A stretch of DNA of 64,000 nucleotides. Source: Panorpa germanica. Lineage: Eukaryota > Arthropoda > Insecta > Mecoptera > Panorpidae. The notes below the pieces were generated by a model. It was not told where the DNA came from. It ran no database searches and worked only from the letters and a program-made list of their open reading frames with translations. A program made the translations under genes and the position numbers. The stretch spans positions 11,594,001 to 11,658,000 of the forward strand of contig OY783209.1 of NCBI GenBank assembly GCA_963678705.1, written 5' to 3'. This document shows, piece after piece, positions 505-28,614 of this stretch. Positions within the stretch are counted from its first letter, which is position 1. Every line of letters starts with the position of its first letter.

Positions 505-3500
505 TCCAGATGCACTTAGTAAAAACCAAGCTTTGGAATTTGAACGTAACAAAGAACGGTTCACATTTTTAAAATGGGGTGCAAAAGCTTTTAACAATAT
601 GTTGATCGTTCCACCTGGATCTGGAATCTGTCACCAAGTCAATCTAGAGTACCTTGCAAGGGTTGTTTTCAGTGAATCACCAGAAGGGGTTAGTGAGACA
701 TTTGAGGGTTTATTTATCCTTAACAATATTTTGAGGTTTGCTATGTTTGCAGAGAAAAGTTCTATATCCTGACAGCGTAGTAGGAACAGATTCTCACACT
801 ACGATGATTAATGGTCTTGGAGTTGTAGGATGGGGTGTAGGAGGTAACAAATTTTGAATTCTTACTGTAAAACTAGTAAAAGAATTTATTCATTTATTCA
901 ATTTGTGATTAAAATTCAATAAAATATGTCTTAGGCATCGAGGCTGAAGCAGTCATGTTGGGGCAGGCCATCTCCATGTTATTACCAGAAGTTATTGGCT
1001 ACAAGTTGGAAGGAGAATTAAATCCTTTAGTCACTTCCACAGATTTAGTATTGACAATTACAAAGGTAATTAAAATTAAGTGAAGAAATAACTTACAATA
1101 CTTAATATATACTTAATAATAATTTGATATTTTCCTTCATGATTTAGAAATTAAGGCATTCTCCAAATTCTGTTGGATTTAAACATTTACAATACCATAC
1201 AAATATAATTTTTTTCAATTATTTAGTTTTTATTAATGAAAGAACATAATTGTTTAAGGTGTATAAAGTATAAATAAAGCTGAGGAACTCTTTTTGACTG
1301 TTCTTTTGTAAATCCAGATAGGACTGTTTGCAAGTAACATTTTTTGTTTATCATTTGCAGAATTTGAGAGCTCTAGGAGTTGTTGGTAAATTCGTTGAAT
1401 TCTACGGGCCTGGTGTTGCTGCATTAAGTATTGCTGATCGTGCAACAGTTAGTAACATGTGCCCAGAATACGGGGCCACTGTAGGACACTTCCCCGTGGA
1501 CGAAATGACGCTAACATACCTAAGGCAAACAAGTAAGGTCTCCTAAAAACTATAAATACAAACCCTGCAGTTATTTATAGATACATCAATAAAAAAATAT
1601 GCACCAAAACTACATTTTTATCTGCAGAAGAATTCGCAGAAAATAGAAAGTAAACGGCAATTATTTAATGAAAAAGTATTGTGTAATGATATAAAAGTAC
1701 ACTACACCCCACTTCATCATTCATAGTTTCCCATTTTTTGAGTTATACTTTAATGACCTATGCCGCAAATAAAAATGAAGAATAGAACGCAATTTTCAAA
1801 AAAAAATTACTGTGATATGGTTTTAAAAATACATCACACAGTAGTTTTTTTCTAATAATCACCATTCGTACTAGTGTTTCCAATATTTAAGTTGCCGTTT
1901 TAAATAATGAAGATTGTAAATGTATCAATTAAAGCAATCGTAGAAGTGAAATATTTTATTTTCGGTAATTGTAATTGACGAAATTATCAATTACAATTAC
2001 TGAGAATAACACATTTCTATCGTACATATTTGTAAAAGAAAAATAATATTTTCCGAAGGATGCGTATACCTAAATCCGTAGAAGTGAAATATTTTATTTT
2101 CGGTAATTGTAATTGACGAAATTATCAATTACAATTACTGAGAATAACACATTTCTATCGTACATATTTGTAAAAGAAAAATAATATTTTCCGAAGGATG
2201 CGTATATCCTAAATCCGTAGAAGTGAAATATTTTATTTTCGGTAATTGTAATTGACGAAATTATCAATTACAATTACTGAAAATAACACATTTCTATCGT
2301 ACATATTTGTAAAAGAAAAATAATATTTTCCGAAGGATGCGTATACCTAAATCCGTAGAAGTGAAATATTTTATTTTCGGTAATTGTAATTGACGAAATT
2401 ATCAATTACAATTACTGAAAATAACACATTTCTATCGTACATATTTGTAAAAGAAAAATAATATTTTCCGAAGGATGCGTATACCTAAATCCGTAGAAGT
2501 GAAATATTTTATTTTCGGTAATTGTAATTGACGAAATTATCAATTACAATTACTGAAAATAACACATTTCTATCGTACATATTTGTAAAAGAAAAATAAT
2601 ATTTTCCGAAGGATGCGTATACCTAAATCCGTAGAAGTGAAATATTTTATTTTCGGTAATTGTAATTGACGAAATTATCAATTACAATTACTGAAAATAA
2701 CACATTTCTATCGTACATATTTGTAAAAGAAAAATAATATTTTCCGAAGGATGCGTATACCTAAATCCGTAGAAGTGAAATATTTTATTTTCGGTAATTG
2801 TAATTGACGAAATTATCAATTACAATTACTGAAAATAACACATTTCTATCGTACATATTTGTAAAAGAAAAATAATATTTTCCGAAGGATGCGTATACCT
2901 AAATCCGTAGAAGTGAAATATTTTATTTTCGGTAATTGTAATTGACGAAATTATCAATTACAATTACTGAAAATAACACATTTCTATCGTACATATTTGT
3001 AAAAGAAAAATAATATTTTCCGAAGGATGCGTATACCTAAATCCGTAGAAGTGAAATATTTTATTTTCGGTAATTGTAATTGACGAAATTATCAATTACA
3101 ATTACTGAGAATAACACATTTCTATCGTACATATTTGTAAAAGAAAAATAATATTTTCCGAAGGATGCGTATACCTAAATCCGTAGAAGTGAAATATTTT
3201 ATTTTCGGTAATTGTAATTGACGAAATTATCAATTACAATTACTGAAAATAACACATTTCTATCGTACATATTTGTAAAAGAAAAATAATATTTTCCGAA
3301 GGATGCGTATACCTAAATCCGTAGAAGTGAAATATTTTATTTTCGGTAATTGTAATTGACGAAATTATCAATTACAATTACTGAAAATAACACATTTCTA
3401 TCGTACATATTTGTAAAAGAAAAATAATATTTTCCGAAGGATGCGTATACCTAAATCCGTAGAAGTGAAATATTTTATTTTCGGTAATTGTAATTGACGA

Positions 3501-6500
3501 AATTATCAATTACAATTACTGAAAATAACACATTTCTATCGTACATATTTGTAAAAGAAAAATAATATTTTCCGAAGGATGCGTATACCTAAATCCGTAG
3601 AAGTGAAATATTTTATTTTCGGTAATTGTAATTGACGAAATTATCAATTACAATTACTGAAAATAACACATTTCTATCGTACATATTTGTAAAAGAAAAA
3701 TAATATTTTCCGAAGGATGCGTATATCCTAAATCCTCCCAAGATATGCTAAACCCAGTGATGCATCTGATATTTCATCAACCTGGGAATAACATGTCTTG
3801 CAAGATTAGAATGTTTAGCTGCATTTGTTCTCCTATATTAACCTGTATATGACATAAAAGATAAGATAAAAGGGACATAATGTGAAATGTCCGTATCTTC
3901 CCTTAAGCTAGTTAAACCCAGTGATGCTTTAAATGTTTCCACCAAACTGAGAATAACCAGCCCAGCAAAGATAAGATTTAGTTTGGGTGCGTCTCAATTG
4001 CAGCACTGTAGAAGAACATAAAAATACAAGAAAGAAAAATATATAACATGAGCATATTTTTTAAAATAATAATTGCTGTTGTGGAAATAACAGACAGTTT
4101 TAAAAGTACAAATACTGTGATATGAATATAGCAACAAATCACAGCAAATGTTCCTTCAAAACGATCTGCCAACACCAGAAGAGTGGTTTAACATGTTATT
4201 TAATTTATAAAATCCAGTGATGAATAAATAATCATCAAAACTAAACTTTATAAACTACATAAAAGATTAAATTTCTTTTCTTTATTTTCAAAGGTCGTAG
4301 TGATGAGAAAATCGCCATTGTACAAGAATATCTAAAAGCTACAAAGCAGCTTCGAAACTATGCAGATGTATCGCAAGATCCCATCTTTACAAAGACTGTT
4401 ACGTTAGATCTTTCAACAGTTGTTTCCTGCGTTTCGGGACCAAAAAGACCACATGATAAAGTTCCGGTTTCAGATATGAAAAAAGATTTCACAGATTGTT
4501 TAACAAATAAGGTATGTATACATAGTTAAAACCTATAAGAGTAGCAAATTGATGTTCTGTAAGTTATACGACAAACTATGCCCAGTGATGTTTTATTACT
4601 AACATCAACTGATACATGTTTATCAAACAAATCACAAATCCTTTTGCAAGTTTCGAAGATATTTGGTTCATGTTATGAATAAACGTGTAAATGATTTTGC
4701 ATACATTCATTTATGAAGGCGAAACATAATTTTTAACTTGAGACAATTCAGAATTTTTATCACTGCAGATAGTAAAGTCAGATGTTAGAACAAAAGTACT
4801 GTGATATGACTTAAATTTGCATTGCACAGCAGTCTTACTCTCACACCAAACTCTTTAAAAATAGCACAAGCTAAAATTGTTTCATTCTCAGGTTCATGTC
4901 TTAGATTAACTTATCGAATAAAGACAGTGTTATCGTATAAACTTAATGGTGTAATATCTTTAACTTTTTTGACTTAATTAAACCCAGTGATGTTCCAAAA
5001 ATCCACCAACTGCGAATAATAAGCCGAAAAAGAAAAAAATGTATTGTAATCTTTTATAGTTACAACTTATGACGCAAATAGAGCAGCGCCACAGCAAACA
5101 TTTTATAATAAGTTACAAATAAGCTAAATACACATAAAGCACAGTACATATTCTATTCACTGTACATTTCAAAATATAAAGATTAAAATCTGCATTATCA
5201 ACAATTTTATTTATAGTTTTAAAAAATGAAAACTTCTGAAGAAAGGTACTGTGATATGATTTTTAAAATTACATAACCAACAGTACTTTTCTCCTAGAAG
5301 TAAATCTTTTCTATATAAATAAAATTTTGTTATTTCTGTGGAAGTTCGTAAACAACGAATTGATAGGATAACTGCAACTGTGATATGAATCTGAAATCTA
5401 CAAATCAGAGCCACAGTTCCTTGCAATTAATTATTTTATTTCGGTAACTAGTTTCTTCCTGTTGAATAGTGGAACTACGTCGCTTTGATGATCTAGCTTT
5501 ATGATGTTAGTACTACTCAGAAGGTAGATCATCATAGCGACGTAACTGTTTTTGTGATTGTTTTTGTTGTTATTTTGTATTTTTAAAAGCGAGTGTTCAG
5601 TCTAGTCACTCATATTTACACAGTGTACTAGACCAACACCCGCTTTTATTGATACACAATTAACCATGTGTAACCTGTTGCTAATTTATGAGATTCGAAC
5701 TGAGCAGTCAAATGGGCTGAATTGTAATCATGTCAACGATCTGTAACTAAGGAATAAAATTCTCGACTGTAGAACTGTGAGCGACCTCAGGTCTCCAATT
5801 TAGGATTTCGGTACTCTGTCTTACTGAACTATACTGCTTCAATGTTCCAAAGTTATAATCGAAGACAAGAACATTGTTTAAAATTCTGAACTGTTCAGTC
5901 AGACAATGGAATAGTTCAATGAAAGGCTGCTAAAGAGGCAAATTTAACATTGAATTATCTTTTATCAAATATTAAAACAGAATACTTCTAAACAATGCCT
6001 TGAATGAAAGAACCCGGTGAGAATTTAGAATGTTTGTCCCAACCAAAGCGTTTCATCCTATGCATTGTTAAGATTTTTACAGAGTAGCTAATGAATAAAA
6101 CATATTGAAAATATATGATGAATAAAGAAAAATAATTTAGAAAGCTTTGAAATATTTGGGCAATGGAAGTTCTGATGATAGTACTAGTACAACTGTACAA
6201 ATTGTAAGAATTCAAAAACATTCCATTGAACTGTTGATTAAGTTAAATATTATTTGTAAGATTTTTAAAGTCTGTTGCATTTATTTATTTAATGACAAAA
6301 CTTTGGTAAATAGAAAATGGTATGTTGGAATTGTAAAGGTATAAAATTAACAGATTAGATTAATTTGAAAATAAAATAAAATATTTTAGAATTCATATAA
6401 AAAGTAATCATGCTAGTAAAATGTGAAAATTCAACTGAGTAATTAATAAGAATATAAGAACATTTTGTTCGAAAATTGAGTTAAATTTTAAAGTTATATT

Positions 6501-9500
6501 TTATTATGAAAAAATTAAAGGTAAAAATTTTAAGTTTTCAAGTTATGATTTGAAAAGTTAGAAAATTTTATATTTTTTAAAAAGAAAATTTATCAAAGGG
6601 TGAATAAATATATGACTTACTTCTTTAGTTGATGTTTTCGAGTCTTGATTTGTTATTTTGAAATAGTAGATTCTTCTTTGCTTTCGTTTGATAGGCACTG
6701 GCACTGGTCACTAACAAATAAATTGTGACCCTTTCTTTCAAAATCACGTCTTTTATACCCTGAACCTGACTCAAAATTAGAAGTGGGGATAATATTTAGG
6801 GGGTGGGGTCTGGATATACAGGTAAACGAATCACTGTGAATGCACACACCTACGTAAACTGCATAACTCAACGGTAAAGGTGCTTGCACACTTCCACTAA
6901 CATGATTTTTACTAGTGATACTTTTGCAATAATTTAATTCAGTCTTGTACGCTATGTTTGCGATTAAACGCTTCAATTTATTTGGGGCTCTTTTATCATC
7001 GGGGTTTTTAGTAACACATAGTTTCTTTTATTCATTTGTCATACTGTAAAGAGGGCTCGAAAAACCCGGAGTCCTACTTCAGCTAAAGATTTATAATGAG
7101 CTAGTTATTCAGAACATTGATGACGTTGACACTAGTATTTTCGGGAACGATGATATATTCAAATTTTAAATATGATCAATATCAATAAAGAGTAGTAATC
7201 ACAGTCAAATTAACTTTTGAGAGAGCCATCATTTTACTATCGATTCTTTGAAAAACATTTGTTTTTATCAGTTGTTATTTTATAATTCTATTTCGCTTTC
7301 TTTTACTGATCCCACACTAAATTAAAATTTTCAGTTTAATTTGAGTAAATAATTATAAATACTCATATAAACGGTATTTTTGAATTTAGCATGATAAATT
7401 AAATACGGATGTTATTTTTAATTGTTTAATAGCTCAATTCCTTGAAAACGGAATGCATTTTTATAAACAATTAACACCACAAATGAATAATCAAAAATAA
7501 ATTTTAAAACACATTTTTCAAACATTAGTTAGACAGGATAAAACATGTAAAATTTGCTAATGAAAGTTAAATTTAATGTTAACGATATGAGATATGTACA
7601 TAACGAGAAAATATTATTGAAATGATTTAAAAAATAGAATCAATATTATTAATTTTGTTTAAGCACCTTTGTTTGTTTCCATGATTCATACTGTATACGC
7701 AGACTATCTGAAGACAGTCTTATCTTGTCAGTTATAGTCTACAAATTTAATTCTATCTATTGTAAATTAGTGATTCATACAAAAGATGTTTTTTTTATTG
7801 CAACTCTTAAATTAAATTACATCTGATATTAATTTTGAAGGTTTAAAACCCTTAAGAGTAGGGTCTCTTCCTGAGCCCCGAAAGATAGGCGTCTTAGAGT
7901 TAGTACTTTATTTGTTTATCTGCTCAGTCATTTCGTTTGTCCAAATAGAAGTACAATTCTATTGTATATGTAAAATTCTGTGAAAATGAACAATTGTTTG
8001 ATATCATTTTATTTTCATAGTTTCAGTGAGTCTACTCACTCATACAAATAAACTGGATATTATCCTGAAATATATAACTTTGTAAATATATTACCGCTTC
8101 CAGTTCAAAGAGAATTTGCTTTTCCTAAATATTTAAGTAGTTGGTAAATTATTTGGAAAAGCTGGAAAGTAAATAATCCATTAAATGAAATAGTCATGAA
8201 TCCTAAAAGTATATTGGTTGAATATTTTAATTATCATTTTTACTTTATTTTGGATAATAGCCCACTGGTTTAACTACATTCCTGTACATTTCTATACTTA
8301 TTGAATTGCAAAGTACATTTTATTGCCTGTGTCATAATGGTTATTTTTACAATGATTGTTATTGTTTAATTTCTTAATCATCTTTCAATAATGTTGTTAT
8401 TTATTATTTGTTGATGGATGACAGCTAAATCGGATGGTGGATGTTTTATTTTTTACTTTTCATGTAGGCGAATTATAATGATAAGACCAACTGCATGTTT
8501 AGAATTAAAATTTTTTTTTGTATATTATTAATAACAAATATTTTAAAGGAATTTTATACACGTTGTTTTTGAATATTCTATGATAACAATAATTGACACG
8601 AAATGGTAGGTGGTGTTATAAGAAATATTGCATGCAAATATTTAAATGCCAACCTTATTTTAAATATCTTATTTTAGCCCTTTTTTTGCTCCCAGTTAAA
8701 TTTCAAAACTCATAAGTCATATTCTTAGATCATCATTCTTTTTGTAACTTGTTAATAAGTTTCAAAAATTGAATCGAAACGTATAGCAGCCTAGAGTTAA
8801 CATTTAATGTTCTTAACAGTTTTATATATTCCAGGAGACTTATACAATTGCGATAAGACTGAATTTAGACAAAATTATTAACTTGGTTCAACGTGTTAAC
8901 ATTCTGGTGCAATTTTTCTACCATGTAATAAAAACAAAAGCCGACGCTTCAATTACAAGGCACTATTTGTAAAAACGTGTTTTATTACCTGCATAAATTT
9001 TATTATTTGCATATTTATTTTCGTAAAAATTTCACACTCACATTAAGAGGCGCCCGACATAAACCTAAGCACTTAAATTGCTGTTAAATTTAAATATTCT
9101 TGGAAGGTTGTTAAAATTTCTATTATTCACAAAACCTAAGGTAAATACTAAAGTAATATTTGTAATCTTTCAATATTACCCACCGAACTATTTATATTTG
9201 CCGAGGCCATTACAAATGCATTAAGCCGTTCAATTCTTAAAAATTAAGACGTTGCTTAAATTTACTGATGACAACCAATTTTGATAACTGCTGATGTTTA
9301 TTATTATTTACTTTTGTCTTAATAATTGTCCAGACATTTTATATTTATTATTTTTGTGATTAATATTTTACTTATTAAACATTTAAAATTTGTAATTTGA
9401 TTTCAATTTTTGTCAGTGTTTAAGTTCAGTCAAAGTTGGCAAACACAAACTTTTCTGACTAATGGGCTTGTGTCCTATGTCTTAATTTCTATAAAAGGGT

Positions 9501-12500
9501 ACTATATATTGATAAAGTTGGTTACTAGAACCTCAAATGTTCCATTATTTTTTAATAACTCCTAATATGTTAATAGATTAAGAGAACAATTAAAAAAGTC
9601 ATTTTGTCTCTTTAATTATTAAAGGGATTCAACGTTGTATACATTCCAAGTGCATGTGACATCACAATCCTTGTGTAAGTTTACCAACCTTACAGATCAT
9701 AAATCTCTGCTATATGTATTTATATATCAAAATATCAAATATTATTTACAGCTATTTCAAGGAACAATAAAATTTCAATATTATGCCTGCCTTAGCAGGA
9801 TTAAATAAAATAAAAACTTATTATTCTTTGATTTTACTTGATTATTTGACTACCAACAGCTATAGAACATTACCACAGCACTGACCTACTCAACAAATAA
9901 CTGACGTTAAAATGCATTTCACGTCATACAAATATGGCCGACCATTTGTAGCGCTAAAACTACAATTCAAACTTTTAATTGCTATATCTCCGTCAACGTT
10001 TAGATATTTAATAAAATAGACACGCCAATACACATTTATTAACATCAATTTCAATCAACAATTGAAAAATCGACTGCTAAAAAATGAGGACACAAGCCCA
10101 TTTGCTTGCAATCAATTTTGACTAAAATAATATTTGACGTATTCATAGTATTGCCATCTCTTTTGCACTCTGTTGTGTAACAGAGATGGAATTTGATAGT
10201 AAGGATAGAAGGTTCATAAATACGCAAGGCAAGTAATTAATAAATTTAAAGTGATTTGATTTATACAATATGTTGTCTGTCATTTTCTGTACAAAAATGT
10301 TATAAACAGGAAAACACAGCTCGTGTTTATTAAATATTAAAAATGGTTAACAAGTGAATTCGATTAAACAGGAAGATAGCTTCTACTGTTTTGATAACAA
10401 AAGCTGCTTTGGTAAACACTTGACTATAAACTATGGTACATATGCAGGTTCTTCTAAGTCGGCAGTGTGTTAACATTTTTCGGTTGCCATATTTTTCTAA
10501 AAATGATTTCATTGTATTTTTGACATTTTATCATTTGCGTAATTTATTGAAAAACAATAATTACTTATTTTAATGATTACTTCTAAAATTTGATGTTGAA
10601 AATTCAATGGTAATATGTATTTAATATGTAATATGAATTTACGTTTTGTGTTTCGATATAAAAATGTCTATAGTGTTCGCTATCTGTCAGACAAATCTAT
10701 CTTAAGACAGTCAGATACTCGTGTATTTATTATGCAAGTATTCTAACAAAACAGTCCAGCATACCAAAATTAAATTAAATGATGTCGTCGCTGTAGATGA
10801 CAATAAAGATAGAGGTTAGGTTACTTTCTGTGCAAAAATAATAACAAAACACTTTGAAATTATCTTTTATTAAATCAAAAAAAAAATGGGCACCATTAAA
10901 AATTGCGGAAGTAGTTAGGAATAGGGTCTTGAGGGATATCCTTTTGATAATGCGAACTTTATGTTTAAAAAGTTGGCTTTGATTTACCATGAAATTAATG
11001 AAAATATGTTCGTTAGATATCGCAATTTAAATGATCGTGGTGGCCCCTATTTTAAATCTTCCATAAAACAGGTATGGGGGAATATTTAAGTGGTTTGACA
11101 TATAAAATTTATCTACTTATTCAACTCTTTCATTATACCAAATTTAACATTTGTCTCTCTATTATACATACTATACCCGGATGCGCGGCTCCCACTCTCA
11201 GCGCTATATCTCGGGAAGGGTTGATTTTATAAAAAAATACATACCCAGTAAACAATTTGGTGAAGTGTCCTATTTGGTGAAGTTCGAGTCACTCGTACAA
11301 TTCTATTCTAACGCTTTACAAGTTCTCTACCTGTCACAGATTTTGTGTTAGTTTTTCATAATAATATTCTTTCTTTTTCCAACATCATTCATTAAGTATT
11401 TCTGTTTCTTTCCCACATGGGTATATTTTTATTATCCGGTCATAAATCATAAACCTACTCCGCTTTTAATTCAGCAGTGAACCGTCGTTGCAATGTCTGT
11501 AGCTCATAAAAAGGACCTTTCCTTTGAACGACTGAATAGAAAACGAACACGTTCCAGACAAAAACTTCATGATACGTAATAGAAATTAAGTAGAATTTAC
11601 TCCAAAATGTTTACTGGGATATAAGAAGAATTTTTGCGGTTTATTTTGCAGATATCTTGTTTCGTATGCTCTAAATGATATTTAGAGATATTAGTGAAGT
11701 TGTAGCGCATAAAATTCTCTACAAATTTGATATTACCCAGTAAACATTTTGGAGTAAATTCTACTTAATTTCTATTACGTATCATGAAGTTTTTGTCTGG
11801 AACGTGTTCGTTTTCTATTCAGTCGTTCAAAGGAAAGGTCCTTTTTATGAGCTACAGACATTGCAACGACGGTTCACTGCTGAATTAAAAGCGGAGTAGG
11901 TTTATGATTTATGACCGGATAATAAAAATATACCCATGTGGGAAAGAAACAGAAATACTTAATGAATGATGTTGGAAAAAGAAAGAATATTATTATGAAA
12001 AACTAACACAAAATCTGTGACAGGTAGAGAACTTGTAAAGCGTTAGAATAGAATTGTACGAGTGACTCGAACTTCACCAAATAGGACACTTCACCAAATT
12101 GTTTACTGGGATATTATATAATATCCAGTTAAATAATCAAATGATGGTGAATCTACTTAATAAGTTAAGTTTGAACATAAGACATAAGTAACCATTGAGT
12201 AAGATATTATCAAAACATAACTTTTAAAATATTCTTGGTTAATTTTAAATACTAACTGTTATGCATATTAAAATTCTTCGAAAAGAAATCGATGGCAAAT
12301 TACTTTTAGACAAATTTATTGCAATATTTTAACTTTTGAATATTTTTTTTGATTTTAGATTAAAATGACCAGATGTTTTTTTGTTAAATTGTGAGACTTA
12401 TGCTTGGCATGTGGCAATTTTCTAGTTAAACGAATACTATTTATTTTTGGTTGACCCCCTCCCCATCGTCGGATCGTGACTTTGTACCTAGGATAAATTT

Positions 12501-15494
12501 TACTTTTCGCCACCGTGGCTCCATGCTTGTTTACGACCGTTGGGAATCAGGGATTTCAATGATTCTCAACGGTCTGGCGCTTCATGTTTTGTTTATTAAA
12601 TAACAATTTTTAACAAGTTTTTCGAAAGGGTTAAATACAATGGATCCTAAATTTCTAAGTCTTTATTTGAAATAGACAGCTCTCTCTATTTCAAAGCTAT
12701 ATTCAAATTTTATTGCTTGTCTAAGATATTTGCAAAGATTGCTATTTATTTTTACAATACCTTGTAAAAGTATTTGCTGGAATCATTAAAATTTAAAATA
12801 AAGTGTCCAAAAATGTATATTTAATTCTCCAAAATATTATTGTCGGTCGTTTTCAACGTTAACAACGTTATTTATAATTTTATGACTTTTGTCAATTTGA
12901 ATATTTAAAAATTTAAATATCATTTAAAAGTAATTTTTGCAAAAATTCTTGTGCTATTGAAAGACAATAATCCCCATACATTAACTATCATAAAATATTT
13001 TATTACAGGTTGGTTTTAAAGGATTTGGAATTCCAAAGGATAAGCTGGAATCCTGTTGTTCGTTTACAGGACCAGATGGGGAGACATACACCCTAAAGCA
13101 CGGATCCGTTGCCATCGCTGCAATCACTAGCTGCACCAACACTAGCAATCCGAGTGTTATGTTAGGCGCTGGTATGCTCCAATATATTTTATGTTTTTAA
13201 ATAAATATGGCCCCCTTTTTTACAACGATTTTTTCCAGGTTTGTTGGCTAAGAAAGCAGTGGCGGCCGGCCTCAGAGTAGCACCCTACATTAAGACTTCT
13301 CTATCACCCGGATCTGGAGTTGTAACATATTATTTAAGAGAATCCGGGGTCGTTCCAGCCCTGGAGAAACTTGGTTTTAATATTGTTGGATACGGATGCA
13401 TGACATGTATTGGTAATAGTGGGCCTATTGATGAAACTGTTGCAGCAACAATTGAGCAGGTATTCATTTTATTTCAAAATAAAGTGGTGCCATCTTTATT
13501 TTAAATCATTCACTACTTGTACTAGTTCATGTACTGAACGATAGGTGTCGGTACAATTTCTAAGCAAAAATATAATAAGTTTTTCAATATTAGAAAGAAA
13601 ATTGAAGAAAATGTAAAATATGCATATTGAGATGCTTAAAACGAAAAATTTTGAATTTCAAAATACATCTACTAACCTTAATGAATAATTTTATGGCATA
13701 GTTATATTATTCAAGAGCTATAACAATGTTTTTTTATATTATAAATTATTTTAGAATGACTTAGTTTGCTGCGGTGTTCTTTCTGGAAACAGAAATTTTG
13801 AAGGGCGTATACATCCACTTACAAGGGCTAACTATTTGGCCAGTCCACCCCTGGTTATTGCTTACGCCATTGCAGGAACCGTGGATATAGATTTTGAAAA
13901 AGAACCTTTAGGTATATATCTTTCTATAATGATTTTTTTTAAATTAAAAGTTACAATGAACTTTGTGCCGCTCATGAATTTATTGGATCATTAAAATATA
14001 TATTTTTAAAACAGGTAAACGTGCCGATGGATCGCCAATATTTTTGAGAGAAATTTGGCCAACGCGAGCTGAAATTCAAGAAGTTGAACAAAAATATGTT
14101 ATTCCAGCTATGTTTAAAGAAGTAAGTGGAATGCTTTTATAGTTTAGCAATTTTGAGACAAATTTTTAATTAAAATCGTCGATTTACAATTTCTACATAT
14201 ATTTTTAGGTTTACAGTCAAATTGCAATGGGATCGGACGATTGGCAGAAATTGGAAGCACCGACTGGAAAGCTTTATCCTTGGGATGATGCTTCTACTTA
14301 CATTAAGCATCCTCCATTCTTCCATGAGATGACTAAAGTAAATACATAGACTATAGATTTAGAAACCTGCGAGATTAAAAGGCAGTTTAGATAAGTTATT
14401 TTTTCTTTTTAGGTACTTCCACAAATTAAGCCAATCGCGAATGCGCGCGTTTTATTAAATCTTGGAGATTCTGTAACGACTGATCACATTTCGCCAGCTG
14501 GAAGCATTGCGAGAAACAGCCCAGCGGCACGGTATCTAGGAGAGAGAAAGTAAGTCATTTAAAAATACTAATAATAAAACAAATGTAACAATTACGAAGC
14601 AGCAATATATTGTTATTTCAGAATAACACCAAGAGATTTCAATTCATATGGAGCCCGTAGAGGACATGATGCTATAATGGCAAGAGGTACCTTTGCAAAC
14701 ATTCGACTCGTTAACAAATTCGTCAGCAAACCTGGACCCAGGACGAAGCACATTCCAAGCGGTGATGAAATGGACATATTTGACTGTGCTGAAAGGTACG
14801 ATTTTGATTTTCCATTTGATTTTCTTCTACCTTATATTGCCTGGAAACTGTCTTTGGTTATGTATATGTATATTATTTTTTTATACTAATTTAGGTACAG
14901 AAAAGATAACGTTCCTCTCATAGCATTAGCTGGAAAAGATTATGGAAGCGGTTCCAGCAGGGATTGGGCTGCCAAGGGACCATTTCTATTGGTAATTTTT
15001 TTAGATTATTTTTTTGCTACTGTTACTTCTATATACATTCGCATTGCATGAATTTGCACTGCTGGAATCGCTGTAATAACCCGGTAAATGACTTTTATTA
15101 TTGCAGGGTCTTCGTGCGGTCATTGCCGAAACTTATGAACGTATTCACCGTTCAAATTTAGTCGGAATGGGAGTTGCACCGCTGCAATATATCGAAGGAC
15201 AAAATGCAGAAAGTTTGCAACTAACTGGAAATGAGGCTTTCAGTATAGAAATTCCTGCAGACTGTAAGCCTTTACAAAAGATTACAGTTAATGTAAGAAG
15301 AAAACTATACTCTTAATAATAGATTTTTGAATGTTTACTTTGTTCAATTAAATTTGTGATAAAATATATAATTGTTACAGATTGATGATGGGCGTACATT
15401 TGAAGTGATTGCTCGGTTTGACACCGAAGTAGATCTCGCTTACTACAAAAATGGTGGAATTCTTAATTACATGGTTCGAAAGATGCTAGATTAA
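505..15494 (+). CDS. ACO1: Cytosolic aconitase / iron regulatory protein 1, C-terminal 759 residues (5' end outside window)
   Basis: Bifunctional 4Fe-4S protein: with its cluster it isomerises citrate to isocitrate in the cytosol; without it, IRP1 binds iron-responsive elements in mRNAs. Exons read from the sequence: 505-688, 753-843, 935-1065, 1361-1532, 4294-4511, 13009-13171, 13239-13459, 13755-13911, 14015-14121, 14209-14337, 14413-14549, 14622-14795, 14895-14991, 15107-15292, 15381-15494. All introns are GT-AG and the joined frame stays open to TAA. The first codon is split, so roughly 140 N-terminal residues and the promoter lie to the left; 1-504 is intron. Visible motifs: [32 protein letters not shown], cluster-ligand cysteines in SCTNTSNPS and [36 protein letters not shown], and the C-terminus [18 protein letters not shown] and the C-terminus favour insect IRP1 over mitochondrial aconitase. 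The 64-bp intron 689-752 is the least certain junction. Introns 4 and 5 host antisense microRNA hairpins. Confidence 0.96.
1794..1857 (-). ncRNA. miR-2944/miR-6-like hairpin A (last of the cluster)
   Basis: On the minus strand a stem-loop whose 3' arm carries CATATCACAGTAA. UATCACAG at the 5' end of the mature RNA (about 1796-1817) is the miR-2/6/2944 seed. The 5' arm contains CTACTGTGTGATG, which pairs with it (ACTGTG..CACAGT). The tail of the mature part is a U run, so this copy may be decayed. Antisense in ACO1 intron 4, separated from the other hairpins by the 13-copy array. Confidence 0.55.
1939..3735. repeat. 13-copy tandem array of a 138-bp unit, each with a 23-bp-stem hairpin
   Basis: Copies start at 1939, 2077, 2216, 2354, 2492, 2630, 2768, 2906, 3044, 3182, 3320, 3458 and 3596; period 138 (139 for the second). 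Copies are nearly identical. Known variants: CTGAG versus CTGAA in the 3' arm (G in copies 1, 2 and 9), and a one-base change TATATCCT at the ends of copies 2 and 13. Each unit holds an inverted repeat, in copy 1 arms 1956-1978 and 1987-2009 around an 8-base loop CGAAATTA; the inner core GTAATTGTAATTGA pairs perfectly. The array lies inside the antisense microRNA cluster in ACO1 intron 4. It could be a microRNA-like or hpRNA locus, or simply a minisatellite. Confidence 0.97.
3735..3804 (-). ncRNA. miR-3/309-like hairpin a
   Basis: Minus-strand stem-loop. The 3' arm begins GCATCACTGGGTTTAGC (mature about 3739-3760, seed CACTGGG, as in the miR-3/309/318 family). The 5' arm CAAGACATGTTATTCCCAGG pairs with it along most of its length. 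It directly abuts the end of the 13-copy array. Structure and seed are seen; the family name is from known insect miRNAs. Confidence 0.8.
3900..3965 (-). ncRNA. miR-3/309-like hairpin b
   Basis: Minus-strand stem-loop with 3' arm GCATCACTGGGTTTAACTAG (mature about 3903-3924, seed CACTGGG). The 5' arm GCTGGTTATTCTCAGTTTGG pairs with it. The first 14 mature bases match hairpins a and e, so these three look like recent duplicates that diverged in the 3' half. Confidence 0.8.
4094..4166 (-). ncRNA. miR-2944/miR-5/miR-6-like hairpin B
   Basis: Minus-strand stem-loop, about 18 of 25 positions paired. 3' arm CATATCACAGTATTTGTAC (mature about 4101-4122, miR-2/6 seed). 5' arm GAAGGAACATTTGCTGTG (about 4135-4156) carries the AAGGAAC start typical of miR-5 and miR-2944-5p. 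Having both arms match makes this the best 2944-type member. Confidence 0.85.
4194..4262 (-). ncRNA. Diverged miR-3/309-like hairpin c
   Basis: Minus-strand stem-loop with 3' arm TTCATCACTGGATTTTATAA (mature about 4199-4220). The seed is CACTGGA instead of CACTGGG. The 5' arm TTTATAAAGTTTAGTTTTGA pairs well (TTTATAAA and TGATGA on both sides). It lies 32 bp upstream, in + coordinates, of ACO1 exon 5. A seed change suggests altered targeting or decay. Confidence 0.65.
4560..4630 (-). ncRNA. mir-309: miR-3/309-like hairpin d (most canonical)
   Basis: Minus-strand stem-loop with 3' arm TCACTGGGCATAGTTTGTCG (mature about 4567-4588). It resembles fly miR-3/309 over most of its length, not only in the seed (CACTGGG, then an A/T-rich step, then AGTTTGTC). 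The 5' arm, TTTGATAAACATGTATCAG, pairs with it. It lies just downstream of ACO1 exon 5 in + coordinates. Confidence 0.9.
4783..4850 (-). ncRNA. miR-2944/miR-6-like hairpin C
   Basis: Minus-strand stem-loop; 3' arm CATATCACAGTACTTTTGTT (mature about 4785-4806). The 5' arm GAGAGTAAGACTGCTGTGC pairs with it. Antisense in ACO1 intron 5, between the 3/309-like hairpins d and e. Confidence 0.8.
4962..5036 (-). ncRNA. miR-3/309-like hairpin e
   Basis: Minus-strand stem-loop; 3' arm ACATCACTGGGTTTAATTAA (mature about 4969-4990, seed CACTGGG). The 5' arm GGCTTATTATTCGCAGTTGG pairs with it. Mature start is identical to hairpins a and b. Confidence 0.8.
5233..5300 (-). ncRNA. miR-2944/miR-6-like hairpin D
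   Basis: Minus-strand stem-loop with a long stem: 5' arm GGAGAAAAGTACTGTTGG, 3' arm CATATCACAGTACCTTTCTT (mature about 5235-5256). CTTCT and AGAAG extend the base of the stem. miR-2/6/2944 seed ATCACAG. Confidence 0.85.
5360..5430 (-). ncRNA. miR-2944/miR-5/miR-6-like hairpin E
   Basis: Minus-strand stem-loop; 3' arm CATATCACAGTTGCAGTTAT (mature about 5364-5385). 5' arm AAGGAACTGTGGCTCTG (about 5401-5422) again has the miR-5/2944-5p start AAGGAAC. Pairing includes ACTGTG/CACAGT and TAATTGCA/TGCAGTTA. Confidence 0.82.
5470..5548 (-). ncRNA. miR-4/miR-9/79-like hairpin
   Basis: A near-perfect stem-loop, ACTACGTCGCT..AGCGACGTAACT with GATGATCTA/TAGATCATC inside. On the minus strand the 3' arm is ATAAAGCTAGATCATCAAAG (mature about 5481-5502). 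ATAAAGCTAGA is the start of miR-4-3p and miR-79. In flies mir-4 is a member of the mir-309~6 cluster, so the position fits. The long perfect stem is stronger than in a typical fly mir-4. Confidence 0.85.
5581..5649 (-). ncRNA. mir-286: miR-286 precursor (first of the cluster)
   Basis: Minus-strand stem-loop: 5' arm AAAAGCGGGTGTTGGTCTAG, 3' arm TGACTAGACTGAACACTCGC (mature about 5587-5608). From memory the 3' arm differs from fly miR-286 at one base in the first 19. Seed GACTAGA. This is the most upstream hairpin in the minus-strand direction and anchors the cluster identification. Confidence 0.93.
5650..9460. other. ACO1 intron 5, AT-rich stretch
   Basis: Apart from the promoter candidate at 6.7 kb, no gene or known repeat is recognised. 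Weak short inverted repeats occur near 5840-5877 (CAATGTTC/GAACATTG) and 6160-6227. A motif near 7697 (ATCTGAAGACAGTC) recurs in inverted form near 10.69 kb and near 52.3 kb and may be a MITE end. Confidence 0.5.
6720..6830 (-). promoter_or_regulatory. Candidate TATA/Inr promoter of the microRNA cluster
   Basis: On the minus strand GGGTATAAAAG (TATAAAA at 6757 down to 6751) is followed 31 bases later by an initiator-like TCACA (A at 6726). That is textbook TATA-Inr spacing. CAGGTAA, a Zelda/TAGteam-type heptamer, sits at 6819-6825, about 60 bp farther upstream. The site is about 1.1 kb before mir-286 and inside ACO1 intron 5. The motifs are seen; promoter function is inferred. Confidence 0.45.
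9461..10102. mobile_element. MITE family M1, copy 1
   Basis: Non-autonomous DNA transposon, about 640 bp, bounded by terminal inverted repeats ATGGGCTTGTGTCC and GGACACAAGCCCAT. No coding capacity. Interior shares long stretches with copies at 18.5, 35.5, 37.7, 39.0, 45.7 and 50.7 kb, such as GCTATATCTCCGTCAACG and CACAGCACTGACCTACTCAA. Inserted in ACO1 intron 5. The superfamily is not clear because no obvious target-site duplication was found. Confidence 0.85.
11244..12110. mobile_element. Foldback element with 375-bp inverted arms
   Basis: Arms 11244-11618 and 11736-12110 are each 375 bp and appear to be exact reverse complements by eye; the spacer is 117 bp. Ends are CCCAGTAAAC..GTTTACTGGG. 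A related, diverged element with the same ends (CCCAGCAAACATTTTGG and CACTTCACCAAATTGTTTAC) lies at 45003-45238, which supports a MITE/foldback family. In the ACO1 pre-mRNA it would form a long dsRNA hairpin. An assembly palindrome is the alternative. Confidence 0.9.
12535..12574. other. Short 15-bp stem-loop
   Basis: GACCGTTGGGAATCA and TGATTCTCAACGGTC pair over 15 positions (one G-T) around a 10-base loop. It is GC-richer than its AT-rich surroundings in ACO1 intron 5. Function unknown; it may be part of a transposon end. Confidence 0.6.
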
Positions 15495-16772: not shown

Positions 16773-17477
16773 TTAAATGTTACGAAGATAAAAAAAATAA
16801 TAGTGTTCAAGCTTTTCTGTAAATTCTAAACTTAAATTTTCCACTTCTTCTGCAGTTATGTTCGAATCAATAAGGTTGTACAAAATATATAAACCTTCTT
16901 TAGAGAGTGATAATAAGTGACGCCTTGCTTTGGCACTTATATGAATTAAAATACAGGCCGCCATTGTTGGTTTGTATTGTAGAGGAAGGGTGGTGCGTCT
17001 ATAACTGTATGTTGCCAAATAATGAGTTATTTTGCACAAATCATTGTATTGTCTATGCTCTCCATTCCAAAGATTTGCTGTTATATACGTATGAGGATGT
17101 GTCACGGTCAAATCAAATCCTAAGGTTGAGATCAGAAAATTTTCATTTTCTAAAATTATCTTTATTTCAGCGTTATTTTTACAGAATTGTCTAAGTTCTT
17201 TAGGACGCTCTTCCACTTTACATGCTAAATACAAACAGGCCGCTGCTAGGTCATCTTTGCTTAATACTGTGACAGGATGGACCATGTAGAATCTCCAGAC
17301 ATAAACCATTGCAGTTAACTTAATAATTGTTTTCACACGTAGACGCAGTCCTAACTGAACTATGCATTCTATGCTCTCTTCGCGAATCAAATTTTCTTGT
17401 TCTTGACTTATTCCTCTTTCTCTACTCGGCGAGTTTTCCAATTTATCTTTCGATAAATACCAGCGTTCTTGATTCAT
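16773..17477 (-). CDS. Cyclin T-like protein, intronless
   Basis: 234-residue single-exon ORF. Cyclin T is the regulatory subunit of P-TEFb, which with CDK9 phosphorylates RNA polymerase II. The start WYLSKDKLENSPS matches the cyclin T/K N-terminus. First cyclin box: VYVWRFYMVHP (about residue 58) and AAACLYLACKVEERPKE. Then LGFDLTVTHPHTYI and the second box TTLPLQYKPTMAACILIHIS; LQYKPT favours cyclin T over cyclin K. It is only the cyclin-box part; fly cyclin T has a very long C-terminal tail. The basic LK region and KVEE are kept but several family positions differ. Lack of introns and the short length suggest a retrocopy that kept an open frame; it may be functional and diverged. Convergent with ACO1. 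Confidence 0.8.
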   Translation of the reverse strand: MNQERWYLSKDKLENSPSRERGISQEQENLIREESIECIVQLGLRLRVKTIIKLTAMVYVWRFYMVHPVTVLSKDDLAAACLYLACKVEERPKELRQFCKNNAEIKIILENENFLISTLGFDLTVTHPHTYITANLWNGEHRQYNDLCKITHYLATYSYRRTTLPLQYKPTMAACILIHISAKARRHLLSLSKEGLYILYNLIDSNITAEEVENLSLEFTEKLEHYYFFYLRNI

Positions 17478-18481: not shown

Positions 18482-19015
18482 TGGGCTTGTGTCCTCATTT
18501 TTTAGTGGTCGATTTTTCAATTGAAGCATTGATTTAGCAATTAAAAGTTTGAATTGTAGTTTTAGCGCTAGAAATGGTAGGCCATATTTGTATGACGTGA
18601 AATGCTTTTTAACGTCAGTTATTTGTTGAGTAGGTCAGTGCTGTGGTAATGTTCTGCAGCTGTTGGTAGTCAAATAATCAAGTCAAATCAAATAATAATA
18701 AGTTTTTATTTTATTTAACCCTGCTAAAGCAGACATAATATTGAACTTTTATTGTTCCTTGAAATAGCTGTAATAATATTTAATATTTTGATATATAAAT
18801 ACATATAGCAGAGATTTATGATCTGTAAGGTTGGTAAACTTACACAAGGAATCCCTTTGATAATTAAAGAGACAAAATGACTTTTTTAATTGTTAATATC
18901 TCTTAACATATAAGGAGTTATTAAAAAATGATTGAACATTTGAGGTTCTAGTAACGCACTTTAACAATAGATAGTACACTTTTATAGAAATTAATACATA
19001 GGACACAAGTCCATT
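18482..19015. mobile_element. MITE family M1, copy 2
   Basis: Ends GTGGGCTTGTGTCC and GGACACAAGTCCAT; interior in the opposite orientation to copy 1 and somewhat shorter (534 bp). Flanked by plain AT-rich sequence (19016-19406). Confidence 0.85.
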
Positions 19016-19406
19016 ATGCCCAAACATGATTTTAGAAATCAATTATAAAAATAAAATTGCTATATTAATAAAATTAACATATACTTTATTGATTTATTTT
19101 GGTTTCATTCAATTTTGTATTTTATAAATATATTTACTTATAAATTACATATACAGTAAACAGGTAACAATGAAATGAATATAAATATTTCTATCAAAAA
19201 TCACAATCATGTTCACAATTTGATTATGTTTTCCGTAAGAATATATGACTTATTCATTAATTAAGATTTAGTATTATTTTTATCTATTCGAAATTCCAGA
19301 GTGTTTACAAGACAAGCACAAAACGTTTTTCATCAAATACTAATTATCTAGCCAAATTATAAAATTAATTTATAACCATTCCACCTCAGAATCATTATCG
19401 TTACAA

Positions 19407-23609: not shown

Positions 23610-24894
23610 TTCTTTCGATGGTTCAGAAATTTTGAACTTTTATTTAAGGTTATATACATTTAATTGTTACTGAGTAAATTTCTTTATATTATTCTCACGT
23701 TAAAAACATTATATTATCGGTGGTATTTCTTGATGTTGCTTTAACAACACTTTTGCTATTTCATAAATCATTTTTATAACTTTTTAAATTTTAAAGGTTA
23801 TATTTTTATTTATATCATATTGTAATTTTTTTGCAGTTGTAGATTACTACATAAATTTTGTACAAATATTCAATTTTTTTACTTTAATTTTACACTTATA
23901 CAACAAAATTTGAGATACATTTTGTACCTTCCAAACAACCTTGATATTTGTAATAGGAATTAAATTGTTCTTTTGTTGAATTATAATATCAACAGTAAGG
24001 AGACGTCATTTGGATTTTTTAAATTAGTTGCAGTTTTATATCATTTATTCATCTACAGATGAAAACTGATGTAATACACCGTAAGATAAATGTAATAAAT
24101 GGATTATTTTGATTTAAATAAAAGCTATTACACGTAGCCTTCTTTTATTGCTTATTACAAATATGGTTTAATATTATATAAGTTAAATAAGAAAACAAAG
24201 TTCATAAAGAAATCATGTCAAAAGAAACTTGAATATGTTATAATTGTTTTACCAACACATTATAATAAAAGATGAATTGGTAGACTTATGAATATAACCA
24301 TCATAATTGAACCTTTATCGATTTTCAGTAATGTAAAATAAAAGTCAAAGTTAAGCTATAAGAAAAGTATACTTGCATTTTGAGGTTAAATTTTGTCACA
24401 TAATGTAATGAATTATTGCAATCTGTTCATAATCAACACCAATCTACACTATTTATTTTTAGGCAAGTTATTAAAAATATGCCTAAATAAACACATTTTG
24501 TTAATATTTTAATAACTGTAGCACTAACTATCTTTACGTAAACTAATGGAGTTAAGCAAATCACACATTTTGTTACGTCATGTACAATATACAATATAAA
24601 GGAGCTGTATCATAGTTATAGAGATAAAAAGATAAAATCCGTACTTGGAACTTTAATCAACAAGACAATTATAGATAATGGAAACATGATAATTATGAAT
24701 AAGTCTAATCAAATTTGTCTAGGTCAACTTCAACTTGTCAAGTTGTATTCTTTCTACACCACCAGATGCCACCTGTTTACCTTCACACACCCACATACCA
24801 CGACTAGTGTCGACATCTTTGGTGCAGGCCAAAGACTAGCGTCTACTAGTACGAAGTTATCTCTGGTACGAAGTGTGATAATGCCACACAGTTA
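23610..24894. other. Intergenic region between divergent genes
   Basis: Lies between the SLC25A44-like gene (-) and the first RRM gene copy (+), so it should contain both promoters. Nothing else was recognised. Confidence 0.5.
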
Positions 24895-25017
24895 AGGTTA
24901 GGTGATTTACGCAGAAGATTGTTGAACACGTTTTCTTTAAACAGTGTTAGTCGTGCTCGCTAAAATTATAGCAAGAAAATAACGTATTTTATTTCCAAAT
25001 AATTATTTTGTGTAACA

Positions 25018-25982
25018 ATGACTAAATCAAATGTAATAGCAGAACCAAAAAAGGTTAAGTTAAATAAGAAGAAAGAGATGTCCAAAGCGCTCAAGGTATT
25101 TTTTGTATATGCAATGCAATAAGAGCATGTTGTTTTATTATTTAGACACCACATTTACTCTGTATCTCTGATATTTACTGATAAACGAATGATTATGCTT
25201 ATTAATTAATGATATGCTAATGTTATGTTATTATTTATTAATTTTTATTACATCTATTTATTATCGATGACCGATTTTGAAGTCTTATGTACATTTTGTA
25301 TATTAATATATATTCTACTAAGAGTCGTCAACGGCGCCGGTTACTTGTTGTATGATTATTATTTGATGCCACTGTTTTATAATATTAATTTCTCGCAATT
25401 TACTTTACAGCCTGCAAAGCCATTGAAAGATGTTGTTGGTAAACCTAACCGTAAGGCCAAAGCAGCAGTCGTCCGTATATCTAAATTAGCGAAGGACATT
25501 ACTGAAAGGCAAATTTCTGATTATTTTCATCAGAATTTTCCGACCTCTAAATTTTCGTGTGTGAAACTTGTGACAGATATAACTGGTGAGAGTACAGGTG
25601 TTGCTCATATAAACTTCAAGAACGCCAAGTCTGCAACAACTCTTGTTTCTAAGACAATTACTTTCTTAAATGAAAAGCCATTATGCGGTAATTATTATAA
25701 TGTGATAAATGTAAATTATTTAATAATAAGATATACCTATTTAATAATAATATACATTATTTTCTATTGTCAGCCGAAATCGTACCTCCAACGCAGGCCG
25801 GAGGCTTATTTATTACAAAGAAGAGTCCAGAAGAAAAGAAGCAGTTACTTACTAAGAAAAGTATAACCTCAAATAAAAAGACAAAATCCAAGGCACGTGC
25901 TCTTAAAAAACCTGTAGCAAAAGAAACTTCAGATGAAGAGGATTCTGATGATATGGACGTTTCTTTTGATAACAGTTCGTAG
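25018..25982 (+). CDS. RRM-domain protein, tandem copy 1 (C-terminally truncated)
   Basis: Three exons: 25018-25095, 25411-25687, 25774-25982; 187 residues. Lysine-rich N-terminus (PKKVKLNKKK), one RRM at about residues 45-115 with RNP2-like VVRISKLA and degenerate RNP1-like GVAHINFKN, then a basic/acidic tail ending SDEEDSDDMDVSFDNSS. The RRM implies RNA binding; the lysine-rich and acidic runs suggest a nuclear or nucleolar protein (inference). Compared with copy 3 it lacks the last exon: the exon-3 donor GTAAGT reads GTAGAT here, giving TAG at once. It lacks the KISAEK insert of copies 2 and 3. The family could not be named. Confidence 0.75.
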
Positions 25983-27510
25983 ATTCAGCTACTGTAGTTA
26001 ACTCTTTAAAATTAATCAATAAATCATTTTTTATCATCTGAACAATTTAATGTTTTAGTATGTGTTGTTAATTTATGAATTAGACATACTTCTAAGGAAC
26101 TAATGAACTGATTGCACATGGGCATAGGTATATAGGTAGGTATGGGCCTGGTAGAGATCTCCAATTTGACGCTTTTGTCCAAATAATTTTTCTATAGGAT
26201 CTTAGTTTAAAGATCTCTGAGGAAACTCGTATATTCCTCTACTGTTAAAATATTCAGGAACTTATGCTCTTCAAAGCATCAACCCATCATTTTCTTTCCA
26301 GATATTTCAACTTTCGGGTTTTCCATAATATGTTAAGCATTTACAGTAATGCAGATAATTGTTGTATAACTTTAGTCATGTCAAACACAAACAAATATAC
26401 CTGCTGCATTAATATTCCATATTGACGATAATACTGACGATGAAGATATTGAAGATGCCCTGTTGTATCTGTTTCTGTGTAAAATGTATACATGAGTCAA
26501 TACATAAAATACATTTCTAAAAATACAAACAAATAACGAAACGAACCTGTGGAGATAGTATTTCGTATTAAAGGCATTTTAGAGCACCCCAACAAATTAA
26601 TTGTATTCGATTGTGATGAAGCTTGAATTGGTGATAGGTTTAAGTTTGGGATTGCGGTGTAAAGCAATACCTTTCGTAAACCAGAATCATTTCTTTAGAA
26701 AAATGATCTTCGCATACATATTTCAAAGATCCTCTTGTTGCTAATGTATCTATGCCAATAGCTATTCCCCATGTTCCAAGACTTTCTGTCTATAGTAAAA
26801 TGTATTGTATATCGTCTCGTAGCTTTGCCATTGAAGTGACATATGATGAATTCTGCAATACAAAATTTTAATTTAAGATAATAAGCATATTGGTTATTAT
26901 ATTGTTTTGTAATAATAAAAATAAGATCTGATCCCATTCTACAATATCCTTGCTATTTCTGAATGGAAAAATTATTCGCAGTACTGCTGCTTGGAGTCTC
27001 AGTACTCTCCTTGGAGTTATTTTGATTTATCTCTGCATTCAATTCTACAGTATAAATAAAAACAGACGAATTAATTATTCTGATAATAAATAAGTTTTAT
27101 AACCTGAAAATTATTTTGCTGTAATTACTGTAAAGCAATTATACTTACTGTATTTAAAAATTAAAACTAACACCATAAACAAACAGGCACTCAAGGCACA
27201 AGCTTTTAATAATGATGTTTTAATAATAAATAATTAAGAAATATAATAATTAATTATAAATTTATTAAGAAATATAATAAATAATTGTAAAATAAAAGTA
27301 ATTCCGTATTTAAAACACTTTATTTGACGTTTAGTATAGTTAGATTAAGCAAAACAAAAGGGCACAGCTGGCTAAATTTCTTTTATTTCAAATTGCCGCT
27401 TAAAATTATTTTGTTGCCTATCTTTGACCTAGTTGGACCTGGTGTTAACTAAAGACTAATGTTAACCAAAGACGTGACGCTGGTCGTGTTAATCTAGATT
27501 TGGTGGAAAC
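25983..27510. repeat. Duplicated 1.5-kb block, copy 1
   Basis: Sequence after the stop of RRM copy 1 that is repeated with small changes at about 29485-31040. Shared landmarks: CACATGGGCATAGGTATATA, GTAGAGATCTCCAATTTGAC, GTGACGCTGGTCGTGTTAAT. No convincing ORF; contents unknown. Copy 3 has no such block; its exon 4 follows instead. Confidence 0.85.
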
Positions 27511-27637
27511 TTTGTGGTTAGGTGTTTTACGCAGAAGTTTGTTGAACACGTTTTCTTTAAACAGTGTTTGTTGTGCTCGCTAAAATTATAGCAAGAAAAT
27601 AACGTATTTTATTTCCAAATAATTATTTTGTGTAACA

Positions 27638-28614
27638 ATGGCAAAATCAAAAGGAGCACCAAAAAAGGTTAAGTTAAATAAGAAGAAAAAGATGTCCAAA
27701 GCGCTCAAGGTATTTTTTGTATATGCAATGCAATAAGAGCATGTGGTTTTATTATTTAGACACCACATTTACTCTGTATCTCTGATATTTACTGATAAAC
27801 GAATCATTATGCTTATTAATGAATGATATGTTAATATTATGTTATTATTTATTAATTTTTATTACATTTATTTATGATCGATGACCGATTTCGAAGTCTT
27901 ATGTACATTTTGTATATTAATATATATTCTACTAAGAGTCGTCAACGGCGCCGGTTACTTGTTGTATGATTATTATTTGATGCCACTGTTTTATAATATT
28001 AATTTCTCGCAATTTACTTTACAGCCTGCAAAGCAATTGAAAGGTGTTGTTGGTAAACCTAACCGTAAGGCCAAAGCAGCAGTCGTCCGCATATCTAAAT
28101 TAGCGAAGGACATTACTGAAAGGCAAATTTCTGATTATTTTCGTCAGAATTTTCCGACCTCTAAATTTTCGTGTGTGAAACTTGTGAAAGATAAAACTGG
28201 TGAGAGTACAGGTGTTGCTCATATAAACTTTAGGTACGCCAAGTCTGCAACAAGTCTTCTTTCCAAGAAAATTACTTTCTTAAATGAAAAGCCATTATGC
28301 GGTAATTATTATAATGTGATAAATGTAAATTATTTAATAATAAGATATACCTATTTAATAATAATATATATTATTTTTTATTATCAGCCGAAATCGTACC
28401 CCCAGCGCAGACCGGAGGCTTATTTATTACAAAGAAAAGTCCAGAAGAAAAGAAAATTTCAGCAGAAAAGAAGCAGTTACTTACTAAGAAAAGTATAACC
28501 TCAAATAAAAAGACAAAATCCAAGGCACGTGCTCCTAAAAAACCTGTAGCAAAAGAAACTTCAGATGAAGAGGATTCTGATGATATGGACGTTTCTTTTG
28601 ATGACAGTTCGTAG
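27638..28614 (+). CDS. RRM-domain protein, tandem copy 2 (C-terminally truncated)
   Basis: Exons 27638-27709, 28025-28301, 28388-28614; 191 residues. Starts ATGGCAAAATC rather than ATGACTAAATC. RRM as in copy 1, with KDKTGEST as in copy 3. Keeps the KISAEK insert in the tail. Ends at the same mutated donor (AGTTCGTAG). Promoter region and 5' UTR (GTTGAACACGTTTTCTTTAA) are duplicated with the gene. Introns are nearly identical to copies 1 and 3, so the duplication is recent. Confidence 0.75.

Follow-up and report, generated by a model that had tools for sequence, protein, structure and literature searches.

A probable twelve-hairpin microRNA cluster antisense to the IRP1 gene of Panorpa germanica, with a private tandem hairpin array inside it

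The window analysed here is a 64-kb stretch of Panorpa germanica DNA (contig OY783209.1, positions 11,594,001-11,658,000); whole-genome searches covered the 464-Mb genome. The left end of the window is occupied by the gene for IRP1/cytosolic aconitase, whose exons lie in order on the plus strand, and two introns of this gene (1533-4293 and 4512 to ~13011, the second ~8.5 kb long) hold a cluster of microRNA-like hairpins on the minus strand. We located the exons by tblastn with a human ACO1 sequence as the query, the upstream exons starting at query residue 34, and found that the translated stretch 13238-13459 matches IRP1 (2b3x) with an E-value of 3.6e-32. The host gene is IRP1. An earlier model-made account of the letters (the sequence-only reading) had placed the cluster antisense within this gene, and the exons on the plus strand and the hairpins on the minus strand bear this out. 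The coding exon that separates the two introns is antisense to the presumed microRNA transcript and was absent from that account.

The twelve hairpins, each of them encoded by the minus strand, comprise five miR-3/309, five miR-2944/6, one miR-286/279 and one miR-9/79/4 member. From 5' to 3' their order is miR-286/279, miR-9/79, 2944, 2944/6, 309, 2944/6 and 3, followed after the miR-3 hairpin H7 by 309 (with an A), 2944, 309, 309, a tandem array described below and 2944/6. They are listed in that order together with the exon; z-scores are from dinucleotide shuffles (1000 per hairpin) with borders set by eye, and Rfam values are E-values.

5574-5658, minus: H1, miR-286/279-like, predicted 3p start TGACTAGACTGAACACTCG; z -9.1; Rfam mir-279 3.8e-8 and mir-286 2.3e-4, both below the gathering score
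5473-5547, minus: H2, miR-9/79/4-like, predicted 3p start ATAAAGCTAGATCATC; Rfam mir-9 8.4e-6 on minus, 0.0026 on plus; z -7.0 on minus, -8.1 on plus
5349-5437, minus: H3, miR-2944, with an AAGGAAC 5p arm and TATCACAG in the 3p arm; Rfam mir-2944 2e-4; z -4.2
5227-5305, minus: H4, miR-2944/6-like; z -5.8; best Rfam match mir-965, 0.0012
4964-5032, minus: H5, miR-3/309-like (TCACTGGG); z -5.0; Rfam mir-3 only 0.87
4774-4854, minus: H6, miR-2944/6-like; z -3.3, with 3/1000 shuffles as low; plus-strand z -0.3; Rfam mir-2944 only 6
4558-4636, minus: H7, miR-3-like (TCACTGGGCATAGTTTGTC); Rfam mir-3 8.4e-5; z -5.0
4294-4511, plus: IRP1/cytosolic aconitase coding exon, between H7 and H8; tblastn with ACO1; GT and AG borders
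4195-4263, minus: H8, miR-3/309-like with TCACTGGA; z -6.4; Rfam mir-318 0.0025
4089-4170, minus: H9, miR-2944, both arms conserved; Rfam mir-2944 59.4 bits, 8.4e-12, above the gathering score; z -7.9
3896-3971, minus: H10, miR-3/309-like; z -5.5; best Rfam match mir-2733, 0.54
3727-3810, minus: H11, miR-3/309-like; z -4.9; best Rfam match mir-2733, 0.011
1787-1864, minus: H13, miR-2944/6-like, the last hairpin of the cluster; Rfam mir-2944 0.005; z -5.1

A gap of 30 nt separates H8 from the 3' splice site of IRP1, the basal stem of H11 adjoins the array, and H4 and H13 are 79% identical over 58 bp. Seeds and folds agree with the sequence-only reading for every one of the twelve minus-strand stem-loops it had placed here, and its family counts (one miR-286, five miR-3/309, five miR-2944/6 and one miR-4/79-like) were recovered unchanged. 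Its miR-286 label stands for part of H1: the 3' arm differs from the Rfam mir-286 consensus at one position over 21 nt, and the whole hairpin scores better with mir-279 (48.9 bits) than with mir-286 (34.2 bits).

The seed words are far more frequent than in shuffled sequence. On the minus strand, TCACTGGG occurs at 3753, 3917, 4581 and 4983 with its variant TCACTGGA at 4214, TATCACAG occurs at 1810, 4115, 4799, 5249 and 5378, and TGACTAGAC and ATAAAGCTAGA occur at 5600 and 5492, respectively. We removed the array, shuffled the rest of the cluster 2000 times with dinucleotides preserved, and found an expectation of 0.0165 for TCACTGGG (4 observed), 0.037 for TATCACAG (5 observed), 0.007 for TGACTAGAC (1 observed) and 0.001 for ATAAAGCTAGA (1 observed).

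When each cluster word was folded as a 3' arm, all 12 gave a significant hairpin with the seed paired in that arm (z -3.14 to -8.23). With borders set by eye, the range was -3.3 to -9.1, and no shuffle in 1000 folded as low for 11 of the 12, H6 being equalled by 3/1000. The stable minus-strand folds that had been named as a check of the cluster are present in 12/12 cases. Corroborating these results, a minus-strand scan at -22 kcal/mol returned 11 non-array single hairpins in 1640-5700, where the remainder of the window averages 1.56 per 4 kb; the same scan of the plus strand returned 4 versus 1.90 per 4 kb. The 11 are ten of the twelve cluster hairpins (H3 and H8 fall below the scan filter) and one further hairpin, which is possibly another member of the cluster:

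1652-1736, minus: H14, candidate hairpin that lacks any known seed and follows the cluster on its 3' side; z -5.1, with 1/1000 shuffles as low; Rfam mir-982 5.7, chance level

The folds also carry a strand signal. Minus-strand folds contain 47 G-U pairs versus 8 in the plus-strand folds, and free energy is lower on the minus strand for 11 of the 12 (the exception is H2). Hence, G-U pairs and free energy, together with the z-score preferences, indicate that the minus strand is the one that functions.

Within each five-member family the start of the 3' arm is invariant (CATATCACAGT in one, CATCACTGG in the other) and mean column identity is 65-66%. Compensatory change accompanies this divergence: for 11/27 and 11/21 predicted stem pairs, one member or more has both partners altered with pairing kept, in a comparison of modest power (five sequences per family, with some pairs broken in one or two members).

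Several results weigh against this reading of the cluster. Shorter seed words recur elsewhere in the 64 kb (TCACTGG three times on the plus strand, TATCACAG five times and TGACTAGA once on the minus strand), although folding these nine off-cluster words as 3' arms speaks for the cluster, with 0/9 significant hairpins (z -1.21 to +0.59) versus 12/12 inside it. By z-score, the minus strand is the better one in only 9/12 hairpins, the exceptions being H2, H4 and H13. Eleven of the 12 miss the Rfam gathering score, the sole one above it being the mir-2944 hairpin at 4089-4170, and seven have best E-values between 0.0012 and 6, in some cases to a family other than the one expected; these seven rest on seed, fold and neighbourhood. 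In addition, H8 has lost its eighth seed base, and H6 has the weakest z of the set with by-eye borders. The distance of several hairpins from the Rfam models and the lost last seed base of H8 are what decayed relics without function would look like. We consider it highly improbable that the twelve are such relics, given seed blocks that stay invariant within strongly diverged stems, the compensatory changes and the G-U richness of the minus-strand folds.

Clusters in this position have been reported before. Ninova et al. 2014 (PMC3923130) describe Drosophila mir-994~318, Tribolium mir-9d~309b and Apis mir-9c~318 as antisense to aconitase, near or within a predicted aconitase intron, and as likely orthologous by position and order. 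Hence, the claim of the sequence-only reading that a position antisense to aconitase was undescribed falls, since it is published for flies, Tribolium and the honeybee. As in those three clusters, the hairpins here lie on the minus strand with IRP1 exons on the plus strand around them, and homologues of mir-9/4 (8.4e-6), mir-2944 (8.4e-12) and mir-309/3/318 (mir-3, 8.4e-5) are present with their seeds. The twelve hairpins, without the array, are thus very probably the orthologue in this genome of the insect aconitase-antisense microRNA cluster.

The P. germanica cluster differs from its relatives in content. Unlike the three clusters, it includes mir-286/279 and has five members each of the 309 and 2944 families, a private hairpin array of 13 copies and an IRP1 exon inside it. 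In Tribolium, whose mir-9d~309b is written mir-9d~3791 in the 2016 paper, mir-279e is in another cluster (Ninova et al. 2016, PMC4691753). The same paper reports three homologous clusters in Tribolium; here, one mir-2944 cluster was found among the candidates scored. With this locus, the few aconitase-antisense clusters on record gain a rearranged, expanded member.

The sequence-only reading had likened the locus to the fly mir-309~6 cluster and called it expanded. The second point stands, as there are more copies here than in the fly membership given in PMC3923130. The first stands for content, all four seed families being shared. By position, the cluster here is linked to aconitase and matches the set in which mir-994~318 is the fly member. 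According to PMC3923130, mir-309~6 arose when a copy was rearranged and expanded, and its content and organisation are unique to drosophilids. Hence, mir-309~6 is probably not the positional orthologue.

We searched the genome for relatives with the mir-2944 and mir-279 models, scoring 59 of 61110 and 57 of 55541 candidates, respectively; the cluster's own weak members H4 and H6 did not appear among the mir-2944 results. No second mir-2944 cluster was found among the 59, a search that could miss weak relatives. Just one mir-2944 match lay elsewhere (C9, E 0.037), and we did not accept it as a second cluster because it is a mir-11~mir-998 locus, in which mir-11 exceeds its Rfam gathering score (1e-7) and mir-998 does not (3e-5); this pair, at L020 4943-5652, serves as a positive control. 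Four other mir-279-like hairpins are spread over three loci, one each at C20 and C4 and a pair at C7, with a further weak one at C4; within ~5 kb on either side of them, the search for mir-2944, mir-309 and mir-9 gave no match with an E-value of 1 or less. A stray TCACTGG in L031 was rejected (fold z -0.4). Outside the mixed cluster, mir-279-like hairpins form two separate neighbouring pairs, at L029 4738-5091 and L030 4886-5260, the second member of the L030 pair being weak (E 0.024). For the coleoptericin family, which is typical of beetles, the genome gave seven matches above the cut-off, three of them free of stops over the aligned part; a search for telomere repeats gave two short TTAGG runs, which say nothing about the insect order.

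Between H11 and H13 lies an element that the sequence-only reading did not contain:

1939-3735, minus, strand uncertain: H12, array of 13 tandem units of 138-139 bp, each a hairpin

The hand-predicted minus-strand arms are TTTTCAGTAATTGTAATTGATA (5p) and TCAATTACAATTACCGAAAATA (3p), also designated by TTTTCAGTAATTG / TCAATTACAATTACC, with cut sites placed by the usual Drosha distance. On the minus strand, the majority unit folds into 15, 8 and 7 stacked pairs with single mismatches between them and a 6-nt loop, a stem of ~32 positions. Pairing continues at the foot, giving 45-nt arms that are 78-80% complementary in 12 of the 13 units and a 31-nt pair in the first. Three of the 13 units were tested against shuffles, and z was -7.3 to -7.8 on the minus strand and -8.3 to -8.5 on the plus strand. 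The unit forms one stable stem-loop, and its stem is as long as that of a microRNA. A preference for the minus strand was sought in the array and not found (plus -32.4 versus minus -32.3; for unit 1, plus -32.5 versus minus -27.2).

The 13 units differ from one another at just two positions: a stem G/A (units 1, 2 and 9) and TATACC/TATATCC (units 2 and 13). Hence, the array is either young or homogenised. The copies are too alike for a test of selection, and the best Rfam match of five units is plant MIR774 at chance level (E 1.4). A genome search with one unit (very common words skipped) found 13/13 full-length matches inside the array and none elsewhere; its 13 partial matches on the opposite strand are the palindrome itself. 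The 23-nt 3p arm has six genome matches outside the array, each with three mismatches and none closer, compared to 13 in all for a reversed control. Therefore, as far as this arm and this unit go, the array is neither a dispersed satellite or transposon nor a hairpin RNA (hpRNA) locus with a near-complementary target.

The likeliest reading of the array, one we regard as evenly balanced between true and false, is a neutral minisatellite private to this locus, which arose when an intronic palindrome underwent unequal crossing over and which gives no small RNA. Unequal exchange yields just such near-homogeneous units with two variable sites in a mosaic distribution, and the missing known seed and missing minus-strand bias agree with it. 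It sits less well with the good hairpin fold of the unit (z -7.3 to -8.5 in the three units tested) inside a microRNA cluster, with its 138-nt spacing, which falls in the range of the neighbours (98-368 nt, the gap that holds the array excluded), and with a genome search that found no other copies of the unit.

That same hairpin shape and position would fit a young microRNA that carries a new seed and has multiplied in tandem within the polycistron, a reading which we rank next and hold only tentatively. Tribolium offers precedents, with lineage-specific hairpins in two of the three conserved early clusters and separate lineage-specific multicopy clusters that are on in the blastoderm (PMC4691753). 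Among the latter, the mir-3851 and mir-3836 clusters resemble the array in being lineage-specific amplifications of hairpins, one X-linked Tribolium cluster reaching 40 genes; unlike the array, their copies are divergent and not co-located with conserved microRNAs. None of the early beetle seed families that PMC4691753 names has either of the hand-predicted seeds, TTTCAGT and CAATTAC. The lack of a strand preference, with the plus strand folding as well or better, counts against a microRNA, as do the absence of a known seed and copies that lack the divergence needed to test selection.

Tandem hairpins also recall Drosophila hp-CG4068, where copy number likewise fluctuates (20 in D. melanogaster, 9 in D. 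simulans; PMC10317233). An array of this hpRNA kind would yield Dicer-2 small interfering RNAs that slice a nearly complementary target, and its 45-nt arms, 78-80% complementary, would suit it. We consider this unlikely: unlike hp-CG4068, a near-complementary target elsewhere was not found with the whole unit and one arm as patterns, and the outside matches of the 3p arm all have three mismatches and number 6 versus 13 for the reversed control. The stems of hpRNAs are usually longer, and those of the array are short for the class.

In the passages surveyed from PMC4691753, PMC3923130, PMC9170749, PMC3562263 and PMC10317233, we found no description of an array in this cluster. The array is the sole part of the locus that could be new in the kind of event it records, a new hairpin raised in dosage by amplification within the cluster. 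A bolder version, in which one transcript of the array delivers a burst of a newborn microRNA at zygotic genome activation, an independent parallel to the large zebrafish mir-430 cluster, and the antisense primary transcript may also silence IRP1 in the early embryo, is in our view doubtful.

For the twelve hairpins, we infer transcription as one unit, processing, timing and targets. A single minus-strand primary transcript would start in the 8.5-kb IRP1 intron, run from H1 to H13 and cross the IRP1 exon antisense. Cutting by Drosha and Dicer-1 would then yield 3p microRNAs that fall into four seed groups (CACUGG, AUCACA, GACUAG and UAAAGC), which by analogy may repress maternal mRNAs at zygotic activation. 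In Tribolium, the most strongly expressed early microRNAs come from the three homologous clusters, and maternal mRNAs that are down-regulated zygotically are enriched in sites of these seed families (PMC4691753); an early-zygotic role here is suggested by these relatives. A speculative start for the transcript is:

6750-6757, minus: candidate core promoter (TATA) TATAAAAG, ~1.1 kb 5' of H1

On the minus strand, TATAAAAG occurs once in 5600-13100 and eight times in the whole window. A CAGGTAA on the plus strand at 6819, near this candidate, is a motif that we take to be Zelda-like. Enrichment of such motifs is unconvincing: 4 of the 17 CAGGTAG/CAGGTAA sites of the 64 kb lie in 5600-13100, where ~2 are expected by length, and two of the four (11327 and 12021) are inside a palindromic element. 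This fold-back element (11244-12110, 867 bp, 94% self-complementary), a nearly perfect palindrome, sits upstream of the cluster within the 8.5-kb intron of IRP1.

The window has other features as well. Just downstream of IRP1 is an open reading frame (ORF) for a cyclin on the minus strand (16773-17477, 234 aa), which has Pfam Cyclin_N and CycT2-like_C domains and resembles cyclin C. Three tandem copies at 24890-32329, ~2.6-3.7 kb apart and 89-95% identical, each carry an ORF of >200 aa; the middle copy, the only one scanned, has an RRM domain (PF00076, E 5.5e-6). A dispersed repeat family has at least six copies in the window, with aligned stretches of ~300-660 bp that are 80-91% identical:

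9460-10102: dispersed repeat copy
18531-19018: dispersed repeat copy
35500-36117: dispersed repeat copy
37728-38324: dispersed repeat copy
45710-46192: dispersed repeat copy
50739-51424: dispersed repeat copy

If the array is not processed, the cluster tolerates a 1.8-kb hairpin-rich repeat. If it is processed, a new microRNA would have been caught during dosage amplification inside an established early-embryo cluster, and the locus would test whether new seeds enter the clearance of maternal mRNAs. The presence of four maternal-clearance seed families at one locus bears on the content of the ancestral cluster.

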